DNA of 64,000 nucleotides, from positions 63,488-127,487 of the forward strand of contig PGZV01000002.1 in the NCBI GenBank assembly GCA_002841495.1. Direction: 5' to 3'. The notes under the pieces were generated by a model that did no database searches, was not told the origin of the DNA, and saw only the letters and a list, made by a program, of their open reading frames with translations. Source of the DNA: Firmicutes bacterium HGW-Firmicutes-2 (lineage in GTDB: Bacteria; Bacillota; Clostridia; Lachnospirales; Vallitaleaceae). This document shows positions 3,595 to 61,980 of this stretch, piece after piece (the first letter of the stretch is position 1; each line of letters opens with the position of its first letter). The translations under genes and the position numbers were made by a program.

Positions 3595-3678
3595 CATGTT
3601 GAAAATTAATACTGATTATGATAAATTCATATTATTGGGAATGAAGATCTCCCTAAGCTTAGCTTGAACCGCAAATTT

Positions 3679-3727
3679 GCTGATGACTTCTGTGATTTTT
3701 TATTTTCACAGACTCATCAGCTTTTTT
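3679..3727 (+). terminator. Rho-independent terminator of corA
   Basis: GCTGATGA plus TCTGTGA pairs with TCACAGA plus TCATCAGC around an A/T loop, with only a small bulge. It is followed by TTTTTT. Confidence 0.85.
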
Positions 3728-11902: not shown

Positions 11903-11976
11903 ATTGTATCAACCTCATGCTGAGATTGCAATCCTTATTTATTGAGATTGACAATCTTTTGATTATCCTGTAAAAT
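11903..11976. promoter_or_regulatory. Divergent promoters for lysO and the chemoreceptor gene
   Basis: Minus strand: TTGCAA (11926-11931), 17 nt, TACAAT (11903-11908), for lysO. Plus strand: TTGACA (11948-11953), 17 nt, TAAAAT (11971-11976), for the chemoreceptor gene. Both -35 boxes are preceded or overlapped by GAGATTG. Confidence 0.65.
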
Positions 11977-11993
11977 AAACCATTATTGGCAAT

Positions 11994-12132
11994 GGGGCCT
12001 GTACACTTTTCTGTGTGCCGGTCTTTTTTTGTACTCTCGCAATCAATTTACAAGCAAAACGCGACCGAGTCGCCATGATATTTTCTGTAAAAATTGAGTT
12101 CCGATCTTTTCTATGAAAATTCAATACCGACC
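11994..12132 (+). promoter_or_regulatory. Long leader of the chemoreceptor gene, with hairpin and tandem repeat
   Basis: About 175 nt separate the promoter from the ATG. An imperfect hairpin (ACAC with GTGT, flanked by GGC and GCC, about 11994-12024) is followed by TTTTTTT, as in an attenuator. Two similar 26-nt units follow in tandem at 12081-12132, sharing TTTTCT, AAAATT and CCGA. I recognise no known riboswitch. Confidence 0.35.
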
Positions 12133-18849: not shown

Positions 18850-18894
18850 TAACTCAATTTTATACGTTGTTTTGAACCTTATTGTTCATCAACG

Positions 18895-19114
18895 AAAGTA
18901 GAGGCGCGATAGCTAAGAGTCATTATATGGATGCATTCAGGTGCAAATGATGTATAATTAAAGGAGATGTCGCCGAAGGTTTGGGTTACCTGTAAGCCCC
19001 TTCCTGGGCAACTGGTTAACAGCCATTTGACTGTCGTATACCTTGCGTATATGAAGTGCTACTTGTGTCTTATCATTCTGAGAATGCACAGTCGCACTTG
19101 TTGACTGTTTTTTA
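18895..19114 (+). ncRNA. Lysine riboswitch (L-box) with terminator
   Basis: The conserved L-box blocks are present: GTAGAGGCGCGATAGC with AAGAGTC, then AAAGGAGATGTCGCCGAAG, then GGTTACCTGTAAGCC, and GGCAACTGGTTAACAGCC. The expression platform is a hairpin ACAGTC and GACTGT followed by TTTTTT (19088-19114). In the known class, lysine binding favours the terminator and shuts off lysine synthesis. It lies directly before dapA, and dapB and the phosphodiesterase follow with short gaps, so all three are probably controlled. Confidence 0.95.
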
Positions 19115-37888: not shown

Positions 37889-38012
37889 CAAGAAAAGAGG
37901 CTTTGCCTCGGTATGAGCTAAGCTCATATTTCTGAACGATTCCTAAGAAAGTTTCCTCAACGCATCCTGTCAGTCTTCAAGACATGATGCTAATTTGAAA
38001 GGCTTTCTTAGG
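37889..38012 (+). ncRNA. Structured element B, copy 1 (candidate RNA), upstream of HD-GYP gene
   Basis: Four stems. P1 is GAGGC-TTT-GCCTC (37897-37909). P2 is TATGAGC-TAA-GCTCATA (37912-37928). P3 is CCTAAGAAAG (37942-37951) with CTTTCTTAGG (38003-38012). Nested in P3, P4 is GCATC-C-TGTC and GACA-T-GATGC (37962-37990) with loop AGTCTTCAA. The stem sequences differ from copies 2 and 3, but the shape and the loop ending CTTCAA are kept. It lies 83 nt before the HD-GYP start. Not a known c-di-GMP riboswitch: its conserved blocks are absent. Could be RNA or a mobile palindromic repeat. Confidence 0.55.
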
Positions 38013-38095
38013 AAGGAATAAAGAGGCTGTGCCCCAACACGATACATAAAGCAAATCATTCCACTTAGGCAACCCTATATGCCGAAGGAGTCTAG

Positions 38096-39416: not shown

Positions 39417-39478
39417 ACTGTCCATCGCCACTTTTTGCATGACTTTAGGATGAAAATCTGTTAGAATAGGGACATATG

Positions 39479-39591
39479 AACAAAGAGGCTACGCCTCGCT
39501 TTGCGAAGCAAATTGTTCCGGCAGGAAAGACTTCTTTGATAGTTAATGCGAGGCTTCAACGCATTAACATAACATAGACTTTCCTAGAGAA
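39479..39591 (+). ncRNA. Structured element B, copy 2 (candidate RNA), upstream of the radical SAM gene
   Basis: P1 is GAGGC-TAC-GCCTC (39485-39497). P2 is reduced to TCGC-TTT-GCGA (39496-39506). P3 is AGGAAAG (39523-39529) with CTTTCCT (39579-39585). P4 is GTTAATGCG and CGCATTAAC (39542-39568) with loop AGGCTTCAA. TAGAAT lies just upstream at 39462-39467. The element ends about 20 nt before the radical SAM start, next to its AAAAAAGGAG site. The stretch from 39230 to here otherwise holds only the terminator. Confidence 0.55.
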
Positions 39592-39611
39592 TGTAAAAAA
39601 GGAGCACGCCT

Positions 39612-40565
39612 ATGTTATGGTCTGACCAGAAACCCTACTATAGCCTAAACTGCTATTATAACCAGCTGTTTGGTCAGAAGACATATAAGATTGCTTTGGA
39701 CATTGGTTTGACATGTCCCAATAGAGACGGTACTTTGGATGACAGAGGCTGTATTTTTTGCTCTGGTTCCGGTTCCGGTGATTTTGCAACACCTTCAGCT
39801 TCAACCCTTGATATACAATTGGATAAAGCCAAAGATATGTTACGAAGGAAATATGATGGGGAACGTTATATTGCCTATTTCCAATCTTTTACCAACACCT
39901 ATGGCCCTTTAGACTATTTAAAAAATACTTATAGAAACATCATACAAAGACCGGACATCGTAGGACTTTCCATTGCAACACGGCCGGATTGTTTGTCCAA
40001 AGATGTTCTTGACTTACTAGAAGAATTGAACCAGATTAAGCCTGTATGGGTAGAACTTGGACTACAAAGCATTCACGAAAAAACCTCCAATTTTATAAGA
40101 AGATGTTATCCTCTTGAAGTTTTTGATCTTGCCGTCCAAAATCTACACACTATTAACATCAAAGTCGTGGTCCACTTAATTGCCGGACTGCCAACAGAAA
40201 CAGATGTTGAATTCATAGAAAGTGTTGCCTATGTCAATAGATTGAATGTCCATGGCATAAAATTTCAACTTCTTCAAGTTCTTAGAAATACGGATTTGGG
40301 TAGCGTCTATGAGAAGAAGCCTTTTCGCGTACTCACCCTTGATACTTATGCTGATTTGATCGTCACGGCTATTGCAAGTATAAGTTCAAATATAGTTATC
40401 CACCGAATTACCGGGGATGCTCCAAAAGAGGATCTGGTTGCCCCATTATGGAGCTTGAACAAACGTGGTGTTCTTAACAAAATTCACCAGCGTTTTAAAG
40501 ATAGAGATTTATGGCAAGGAAAGTTATTAGAAAACAACGAAAGAAGGCATGACCATGACCGGTAA
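39612..40565 (+). CDS. TIGR01212 family radical SAM protein (YhcC/YtqA-like)
   Basis: 317 residues. Near the N-terminus KIALDIGLTCPNRDGTLDDRGCIFCS carries the widely spaced 4Fe-4S cysteines of this family (C-x12-C-x2-C). AYFQSFTNTYGPLDYLKNTYR, LSIATRPDCL, WVELGLQSIHEKT and HLIAGLPTETD follow the family pattern of a TIM-barrel radical SAM enzyme. Reaction not well established in bacteria. Its ribosome-binding site lies at the end of structured element B. The end overlaps the DUF4364 start region. Confidence 0.88.
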   Translation: MLWSDQKPYYSLNCYYNQLFGQKTYKIALDIGLTCPNRDGTLDDRGCIFCSGSGSGDFATPSASTLDIQLDKAKDMLRRKYDGERYIAYFQSFTNTYGPLDYLKNTYRNIIQRPDIVGLSIATRPDCLSKDVLDLLEELNQIKPVWVELGLQSIHEKTSNFIRRCYPLEVFDLAVQNLHTINIKVVVHLIAGLPTETDVEFIESVAYVNRLNVHGIKFQLLQVLRNTDLGSVYEKKPFRVLTLDTYADLIVTAIASISSNIVIHRITGDAPKEDLVAPLWSLNKRGVLNKIHQRFKDRDLWQGKLLENNERRHDHDR

Positions 40566-48933: not shown

Positions 48934-49015
48934 TGCGGATGAAGGGAGTCGAACCCCCACGCCGTAAAGCGCTAGATCCTAAGTCTAGTGCGTCTGCCAA
49001 TTCCGCCACATCAAG
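48934..49015 (-). tRNA. tRNA-Leu(UAG), acceptor stem disrupted
   Basis: 82 nt. The anticodon loop CTTAGGA gives UAG. The D, anticodon, variable and T arms are normal. The 5' acceptor strand is CTTGATG but the 3' strand is CATCCGC, so only the four inner pairs fit and the outer three (1-72, 2-71, 3-70) do not form Watson-Crick pairs. Expected 5' strand: GCGGATG. It may be a damaged gene; no CCA is encoded. Last gene of the array. Confidence 0.8.
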
Positions 49016-49034
49016 TTACTGCAAGCATTAACGA

Positions 49035-49107
49035 TGAGTCACCCGGGGTTCGAACCCGAGACAACTGGATTAAAAGTCCAGTGCTCTACCAGCTGAGCTA
49101 GTGACCC
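49035..49107 (-). tRNA. tRNA-Lys(UUU)
   Basis: 73 nt. The acceptor GGGTCAC pairs with GTGACTC. Anticodon loop CTTTTAA gives UUU. CCA not encoded. Confidence 0.95.
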
Positions 49108-49164
49108 GTAATACTGTGTTCCTTTTTCTGTCATAAGACCGCTGTTACATTGACCTTATGGAAA

Positions 49165-49236
49165 CTGGGTAGGAAGGATTCGAACCTTCGCATACAGGAG
49201 TCAAAGTCCAGTGCCTTACCGCTTGGCGACTACCCA
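49165..49236 (-). tRNA. tRNA-Gln(UUG)
   Basis: 72 nt. The acceptor TGGGTAG pairs with CTACCCA. Anticodon loop CTTTGAC gives UUG. The anticodon stem has a U-U mismatch at positions 28-42 (CTGGA against TCCTG). CCA not encoded. Confidence 0.93.
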
Positions 49237-49248
49237 ATATTATTTAAG

Positions 49249-49321
49249 GGTGGATAATGGGACTCGAACCCACAACAACCAGAACCACAATCTGGCGCTC
49301 TACCATTGAACTATACCCACC
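49249..49321 (-). tRNA. tRNA-His(GUG)
   Basis: The acceptor GTGGGTA pairs with TATCCAC, and an extra 5' G faces the discriminator C as in tRNA-His. Anticodon loop TTGTGGT gives GUG. Confidence 0.94.
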
Positions 49322-49356
49322 ATATGATCATCTTAAGTTGCCTTAAGAATCATTAA

Positions 49357-49430
49357 CGTGCCAGCAGGGATTCGAACCCCGGACACCCGCCTTAGAAGGG
49401 CGATGCTCTATCCAGCTGAGCTACTGGCAC
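49357..49430 (-). tRNA. tRNA-Arg(UCU)
   Basis: 74 nt. The acceptor GTGCCAG pairs with CTGGCAC. Anticodon loop CTTCTAA gives UCU. Confidence 0.94.
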
Positions 49431-49464
49431 AAGTTATATCTTAGGTGTGCTCATTTCATGATGA

Positions 49465-49535
49465 AGCGGGTAGGGGGAATCGAACCCCCGTAACCAGCTT
49501 GGAAGGCTGGAGTTTTACCATTAAACTACACCCGC
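49465..49535 (-). tRNA. tRNA-Gly(UCC)
   Basis: 71 nt. The acceptor GCGGGTG pairs with TACCCGC (one G-U). Anticodon loop CTTCCAA gives UCC. Confidence 0.94.
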
Positions 49536-49577
49536 AAAATGATGGCCATCATCTCACACTAATGGTGAAGTTAAAAA

Positions 49578-49652
49578 TCGGGGTGACAGGATTCGAACCT
49601 GCGGCCTCTTGAACCCAAATCAAGCGCTCTAGCCAAGCTGAGCCACACCCCG
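49578..49652 (-). tRNA. tRNA-Pro(UGG)
   Basis: 75 nt. The acceptor CGGGGTG pairs with CACCCCG. Anticodon loop TTTGGGT gives UGG. First gene of the array. Confidence 0.95.
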
Positions 49653-61820: not shown

Positions 61821-61946
61821 CAAGAAAAGAAGCTACGCTTCGTTATGAGCTTTGCTCATATTTCTGAACGGTTCGGCAGGAAAGGCTTCCTTGATCGTTA
61901 ATGCGATGCTTCAACGCATTAACATGACATAGGCTTTCCTAGAGAA
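61821..61946 (+). ncRNA. Structured element B, copy 3 (candidate RNA)
   Basis: P1 is GAAGC-TAC-GCTTC (61829-61841), a two-sided change from GAGGC-GCCTC. P2 is TATGAGC-TTT-GCTCATA (61844-61860). P3 is AGGAAAG (61878-61884) with CTTTCCT (61934-61940). P4 is GTTAATGCG and CGCATTAAC (61897-61923) with loop ATGCTTCAA. No plus-strand gene follows, so it is not an obligatory leader. It is followed directly by a perfect terminator. Confidence 0.55.
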
Positions 61947-61948
61947 GA

Positions 61949-61980
61949 ACAAAGACAAGCGCTTATGCGCTTGTCTTTGT
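61949..61980. terminator. Perfect terminator after element B copy 3 / pspC
   Basis: ACAAAGACAAGCGC and GCGCTTGTCTTTGT form a perfect 14-bp stem with a 4-nt loop. CTTTT follows on the plus strand. It can also end the glmS-pspC transcript on the minus strand. Confidence 0.85.

Follow-up and report, generated by a model that had tools for sequence, protein, structure and literature searches.

The structured element present in three copies in the window, a stretch of 64,000 nucleotides from Firmicutes bacterium HGW-Firmicutes-2, is a member of a widespread, structured and real family of repeats that is unnamed in Rfam and in the literature searched, and is best read as akin to the BOX and bcr kind of mobile repeat. 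Copies are dispersed, differ in presence between species, are enriched for an A-tract and a hairpin on their 3' side, form head-to-tail arrays and carry compensatory changes. On balance we favor a non-autonomous mobile repeat with a unit of ~113-126 bp that would land behind terminators, depend on its fold and be moved in trans.

Direct reading and folding bore out the three copies and the fold that the first-pass annotation had given them, P1 and P2 followed by P3 enclosing P4; missing from that description was a further helix, P0, which closes P1 and P2 into a three-way junction, P3 enclosing P4 coming after. Copy 1 (37889-38014, + strand; direct reading, folding, and model match) comprises P0 (37891-37895/37929-37933), P1 (37897-37909), P2 (37912-37918/37922-37928), P3 (37940-37951/38003-38014), and P4 (37962-37971/37981-37990) with a 9-nt loop (37972-37980). 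Copy 2 (39478-39591, + strand; direct reading, folding, and model match) has P0 at 39478-39483/39513-39518, P1 at 39485-39497, P3 at 39523-39529/39579-39585, and P4 at 39542-39550/39560-39568, and copy 3 (61821-61946, + strand; P1 at 61829-61841; direct reading and model match) is a mosaic of a subfamily II-like left half and a subfamily I-like right half (P3/P4). The annotated stem changes are as claimed: copies 1 and 2 share a P1 of GAGGC/GCCTC where copy 3 has GAAGC/GCTTC; at P4, copy 1 carries GCATC-TGTC/GACA-GATGC and the other two copies carry GTTAATGCG/CGCATTAAC; and the P4 loops, said to keep CTTCAA, read AGTCTTCAA, AGGCTTCAA, and ATGCTTCAA. P0 is AGAAA/TTTCT in copies 1 and 3, and GAACAA/TTGTTC in copy 2.

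The count of three copies was real and incomplete. Directly behind copy 1 stands the truncated start of a following unit in direct repeat (GGAATAAAGAGGCTGTGCCCC, 38015-38035, + strand), whose AAAGAGGC lies 126 bases after the AAAGAGGC of copy 1. A possible degenerate fourth copy at 11964-12084 (− strand) has only P1/P2-like sequence and matches the broader covariance model R2 weakly (E = 0.0027 in the window); it folds no more stably than shuffles (z −0.5), the adjoining hairpin scores z −3.8, and on the + strand it stands behind a hairpin and a run of seven T. Copy 2 is preceded by a promoter-like site (ATGACT-17-TAGAAT, 39439-39467) and followed just 3' by an A-tract and GGAG (AAAAAAGGAG, 39595-39604, + strand), which we read as the putative ribosome-binding site of a radical SAM gene (39612-40565, with Pfam Radical_SAM and Radical_SAM_C matches). 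Directly behind copy 3 lies a terminator-like hairpin of 14 pairs with a T-rich tail (61949-61980, no strand assigned). Around the window copies, promoter-like matches are no more frequent than in shuffles, and the neighbor genes have no common theme. The claim of a single orientation holds within the window and fails genome-wide, where both strands are used. The window also contains Rfam fluoride (3628-3699) and lysine (18891-19069) riboswitches, and seven clustered tRNA genes at 48934-49652 (− strand).

BLAST searches of the own genome with queries around copies 2 and 3 found at least 25 and at least 45 places, respectively, both lower bounds with 40 candidates scored for each. A covariance model, R1, built from 17 own-genome sequences gave at least 75 matches in the own genome (G000) and at least 91, 67, and 39 in three other species of the genus (E 0.01; 150 candidates scored per genome, hence lower bounds). 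These 25 and 45 BLAST matches and 75 model matches exclude a chance origin of the copies, and the search of genome and relatives that the first-pass annotation had proposed thus yielded dozens of further copies. At the family level, 17 of 22 genomes match R2 at 1e-4, and G025, G060, G148, and G091 lack a match even at E 0.01; an order-level sample gave matches in 14 of 196 genomes, three from the own genus, and one genome of another family of the same order has 19 matches (E 0.01). A class-wide draw of 391 genomes, under strict filters and with few candidates scored, matched the own genome alone, and a scan of viral contigs with one exact pattern had no match. Among named genomes a pattern scan, which may have excluded records of the own genome, found Petrocella sp. 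FN5, Firmicutes bacterium HGW-Firmicutes-3, and a Vallitaleaceae MAG; from identical element coordinates, G003 is apparently Petrocella sp. FN5 and G002 apparently HGW-Firmicutes-3. Petrocella is placed in Vallitaleaceae, Lachnospirales. Two main subfamilies start CAAGAAAAGAAGC or GAACAAAGAGGC, and copies may combine halves of the two; most genus rows retain the CTTCAA loop, allowing for variants, and other genera retain it less.

The annotation had recognized no described class, and Rfam 15 at its gathering cut-off has no match over any copy in the window and 20 further loci; a further search gave five weak matches, which fell far short of their cut-offs and lay outside copies 1 and 2. None of the titles and abstract starts returned by searches of open PubMed Central describes the family. 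Further copies and covariation were found and Rfam gave no match, so that none of the outcomes named by the annotation as refuting came about; these results uphold part of the annotation's reading as a functional RNA class, of which its matched stems are no proof.

In an alignment of 47 copies fitted to the structure by R1, 96.8% of 1587 cells are paired, compared with 36-45% in slid controls, and both sides have changed in 28 of 35 pairs. Because this alignment leans towards the structure, 23 copies were aligned by sequence alone and folded. From the second alignment RNAalifold recovered P1 and P4, where 13 of 15 pairs are preserved despite double changes, but not P0, P2, or P3. With P1, P3, and P4 imposed, 95.4% of cells are paired versus 73.2% in shuffles, and the covariation score is 0.611 versus 0.200 (0.08-0.16 when slid), both above 500 of 500 shuffles; doubly changed pairs (12 versus 11.5 shuffled) and pair types (29 versus 31.2) are not above shuffles, and P3 is without any double change. 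Covariation, which the annotation had named as a check, is strong across genera, but two of five measures on the sequence-only alignment do not exceed shuffles. Judged from the aligned sequences, there is independent evidence for P1 and P4, and P0, P2, and P3 rest on the fitted alignment.

In sequence-only alignments, G-U pairs outnumber A-C pairs on the + strand by 24 to 7 for subfamily I and by 101 to 53 for subfamily II, where doubtful pairs inflate the count; at distinct pair positions the figures are 15 to 7 and 22 to 14, respectively. This excess suggests the + strand as the one folding under selection. The + strand minimum free energies give z-scores of −4.3, −2.7, and −2.7 for copies 1, 2, and 3 against dinucleotide shuffles. 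The balance suggests, and leans towards, a selected fold on the + strand, but the minus strand of copy 2, the only minus strand folded, has a z-score (−3.4) no worse than and in fact better than its + strand. P4 seems dispensable, since P4-less units of 103-104 nt exist at L130:8940-9043 and L115:12478-12580 in G001 and at L047:199-301 in G003; the site orthologous to L130 in G000 (L031) holds a full unit. Two further variants were seen: a ~29-nt palindromic insert, about GTAAGTGACCAGCTTTGCTGGACACGCTC, within the P3 3' arm at L023, L026, and L027, and a lone P3-like palindrome, ATTAGGAAAGTAGRACTTTCCTAATAAA, directly before full or P4-less units in the left flanks of L048, L115, and L132.

The surroundings of the copies were counted at 69 genus sites, kept after removal of arrays shorter than 90 nt, of flanks shorter than 200 nt, and of identical flanks, and at 20 of 22 copies from other genera, some of these sites being each other's orthologues. 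A run of at least five A within 14 nt is found at 35 of the 69 3' ends versus 2 of the 5' ends (1000 draws of random positions 60-180 nt out averaged 1.6 and peaked at 7), and a stem of at least eight pairs starting within 20 nt at 34 versus 3 (random mean 3.7). Both features together, at thresholds of four A and seven pairs, occur on the 3' side of 29/69 sites and, mirrored, on the 5' side of 0/69; T-runs of at least five occur at 7/69 5' ends. The 3' neighbor, among mechanical ORFs of at least 80 amino acids, lies on the opposite strand at 52/69 sites. Read along the minus strand, many sites thus have a gene first, then a terminator-like hairpin, a T-tract, and the element, whereas some + sites, e.g. 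copy 2, precede A-rich putative ribosome-binding sites instead. In other genera the A-run is on the 3' side of 8/20 copies and the 5' side of 2/20. Copies thus often stand behind terminators; about half of the genus sites follow the A-tract rule, and the nearly fixed feature is orientation relative to the neighboring hairpin and A-tract. A promoter locked to the element was considered and set aside, promoter-like sites before it showing a weak excess only (12/69 versus 6.1 in shuffles and 8 at a control distance). A replication-strand bias was likewise not adopted: by hand count, 36 of 45 listed places in G001 have the minus strand in the leading-strand sense (skew switches taken near 0.125 and 1.875 Mb), which may merely follow gene orientation.

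Comparison of the same intergenic sites between species of the genus shows that element content differs. Copy 2 is kept with few differences in G000, G002, and G003 and is a remnant, CTAGAGAATGT, in G001; the orthologue of the copy 1 site (L176) is occupied by an array made up of other units. Empty sites could be read in two cases. One corresponds to the copy at C25:24503 (L025 filled, L136 empty), and the other lies within another repeat (L072 filled; L003, L020, L042, and L053 empty), reading GGATG/TAAAAAAGG when empty and GGATG[CAAG...GAAAAT]TAAAAAAGG when filled. Neither has a target-site duplication, one of 1-2 bases being still compatible because the element ends are placed only approximately. 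Either site could be a precise loss rather than never filled. The apparent empty sites at copy 2, L004, and L003 retain bases resembling, by eye, the element's 3' end, which fits loss by deletion, so these may be losses; at L035, L036, and L051 the flanks are too diverged or rearranged to read. Orthologous sites can also hold different subfamilies or P4 stems (L005/L044, L019/L167, L077/L151) or different numbers of units (L046/L074). The host repeat of the second site, itself dispersed and structured (CACAGTTCTACATGGATGTAGAACGTCCTTCATTTTTACATGGATG...GGAAGGATGATTAAGCAGC; L003, L020, L042, L053, L059, L072, L076, L079, and L139), occurs, depending on the locus, either with the element at a fixed position or without it there. 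By eye, the 5' end CAAGAAAAG and the reverse complement of the 3' end GTTCTCAAG form no terminal inverted repeats.

Among 103 hits, neighboring pairs within 150 bases have the same orientation in 21 of 21 cases, one pair being counted in two overlapping loci. Arrays of mixed subfamily (L008, L071, L123) argue that they are not solely tandem duplications. The minus-strand end of a unit consists of P1 followed by TTTTCTTG or TTTGTTC, and a terminator scan of the minus strand flagged P1, with weak matches, in all three window copies and in the 38015-38035 unit (first stretch: 3 found versus 1.0 in shuffles). On the minus strand, then, P1 and its T-rich tail look like a weak terminator, a likeness that could explain array growth.

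Bacterial genomes commonly carry small structured repeats, often without a known mover. Because no mobilizing enzyme tied to the element was found, we infer the mechanism beyond the landing preference. In the mobile repeat that we favor, the folded strand, with its P0/P1/P2 three-way junction and then the P3/P4 hairpin, would be recognized by a trans-acting enzyme, and the intermediate could be either single-stranded DNA or RNA. New copies would join preferentially right behind the T-tract of a hairpin terminator (which reads as an A-tract on the strand of the element), keeping to one orientation and duplicating no target sequence. The P1 and T-rich tail of a landed copy might then mimic a minus-strand terminator and offer the next landing site, giving rise to arrays, and the fold would be conserved because mobility requires it.

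A rival reading invokes a Y1 (HUH) transposase, which would cut the folded single strand and insert it on the 3' side of a short T-rich site, duplicating nothing; the element would then be a relative of REP or of IS200/IS605-derived repeats, its partner gene lost from this genome. The subterminal hairpins, the near-fixed orientation, the T-tract on one side, and the lack of duplication at the two readable sites agree with this. The T-tract side and missing duplication would also suit an IS200/IS605-derived element inserting next to a short 5' target, but no common tetranucleotide was established. Y1 matches (PF01797) number 55 in the family, spread over 17 of 22 genomes; however, there are none in the own genome, in G002 (86% complete), or in the carriers G140 and G164, a search of 30 of the 55 as ~3 kb loci gave no good copy and a single hit at E 0.88, and no GTAG tag is seen by eye at the element ends, so that we hold this origin to be unlikely. 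Distinctly unlikely, in our estimate, is an RNA-mediated, SINE-like route, in which the 3' end of a T-tract would prime reverse transcription of a + transcript that is A-rich at its own 3' end, the product being joined at that spot. Orientation and junction are as expected for T-tract priming, the + strand G-U excess and the lack of duplication at the readable sites fit, and reverse transcriptase matches are present in all four genus species (one in G000), but A is not clearly gained at filled sites, some copies are truncated at one end or the other, and both enzymes examined, the G000 match and one from G001, are maturase- and HNH-containing proteins of group II introns that are not known to be linked to the element. 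If anything even less probable is the fuller proposal of a bacterial SINE-like element for which the terminator T-tract would be both landing and priming site and whose own-end terminator mimic would generate the head-to-tail arrays.

The family might instead be a host-used structured RNA (a leader, an sRNA, or an mRNA boundary element) that has multiplied and is kept for its effect on neighbors. The deep compensatory change speaks for such a use, as does copy 2, which lies between a promoter-like site and a putative ribosome-binding site and persists with few differences in three species, and so does the retention of the same fold at some orthologous sites that swap subfamily or P4 stem. Yet copy 2 is a remnant in G001, 52/69 copies are antisense to their 3' neighbor, the promoter-like excess is slight (12/69 versus 6.1 shuffled and 8 at the control distance) and gone in the window, where matches are at shuffle level, and neighbor genes lack a theme; we regard this account as improbable for the family as a whole. 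Dispersal, the differences between species, nesting within another repeat, the antisense placement, and the G001 remnant together fit a mobile repeat better than a host regulatory RNA. A local function of copy 2, persisting in three species, is possible, as is a host RNA role for other single copies.

Compared by described architecture, the family is close to BOX of Streptococcus pneumoniae, which is built of boxA, boxB, and boxC modules with boxB absent or repeated (PMC3049150). Both are dispersed, structured, intergenic, modular repeats with tandem-variable parts, and BOX is described there as over-represented between convergent genes and possibly cotranscribed with genes (PMC3049150); in contrast, here the whole ~113-126-bp unit repeats, with its own fold and its A-tract/hairpin preference. 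The bcr repeats of the Bacillus cereus group, 100-400 bp long with up to 130 copies of bcr1 per genome, are likewise confined to one bacterial group and have mobile features, but their mobility is linked to TTTAT motifs, none of which stands at the two readable sites (PMC6542083). REP repeats, described as 20-40 bp palindromes with a GTAG or CGTC tag and thought to be mobilized by Y1 enzymes, share palindromic single-strand folds, dimers, and arrays (PMC3733652); the present element differs in its ~120 bp, in the lack of a tag by eye, and in having no Y1 match in the own genome. With tag and size not as in REP, no Y1 match in G000 or G002, and no good copy in the 30 of 55 Y1 loci searched, a REP/RAYT assignment was rejected. 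A MITE, as defined in PMC3049150, was rejected as well, terminal inverted repeats not being seen by eye and no target-site duplication being seen at the two readable sites.

Further candidates were considered and discarded. A pseudoknot of loop TCAA with TTGA before P4 fails in copy 1, where TCAA stands on both sides. Group IIC introns insert behind intrinsic terminators in a fixed orientation. The element too is often behind terminators and near-fixed in orientation, but neither the window nor 20 loci has a group II Rfam match, and a unit of ~120 bp is too short for a reverse transcriptase. IS91 targets the words CAAG or GAAC. An IS91-like rolling circle, suggested by copies that start CAAG or GAAC, was rejected as these words are absent at the two readable empty sites; they are present at the less clear L004 site. 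One P4 sequence resembles integron attC core sites, but the P4 stems of other copies are unrelated. Whether the two halves might bound a longer carrier was looked at by eye in the match listings alone. The family supplies copies by the dozen within a genome, close relatives (one apparently Petrocella sp. FN5) provide both filled and empty sites, and the landing preference lends itself to a precise statement; it can therefore be tested directly what moves such repeats and why their folds are conserved. The terminator-mimic idea, if right, would give a simple account of array growth that can be checked in other repeat families.
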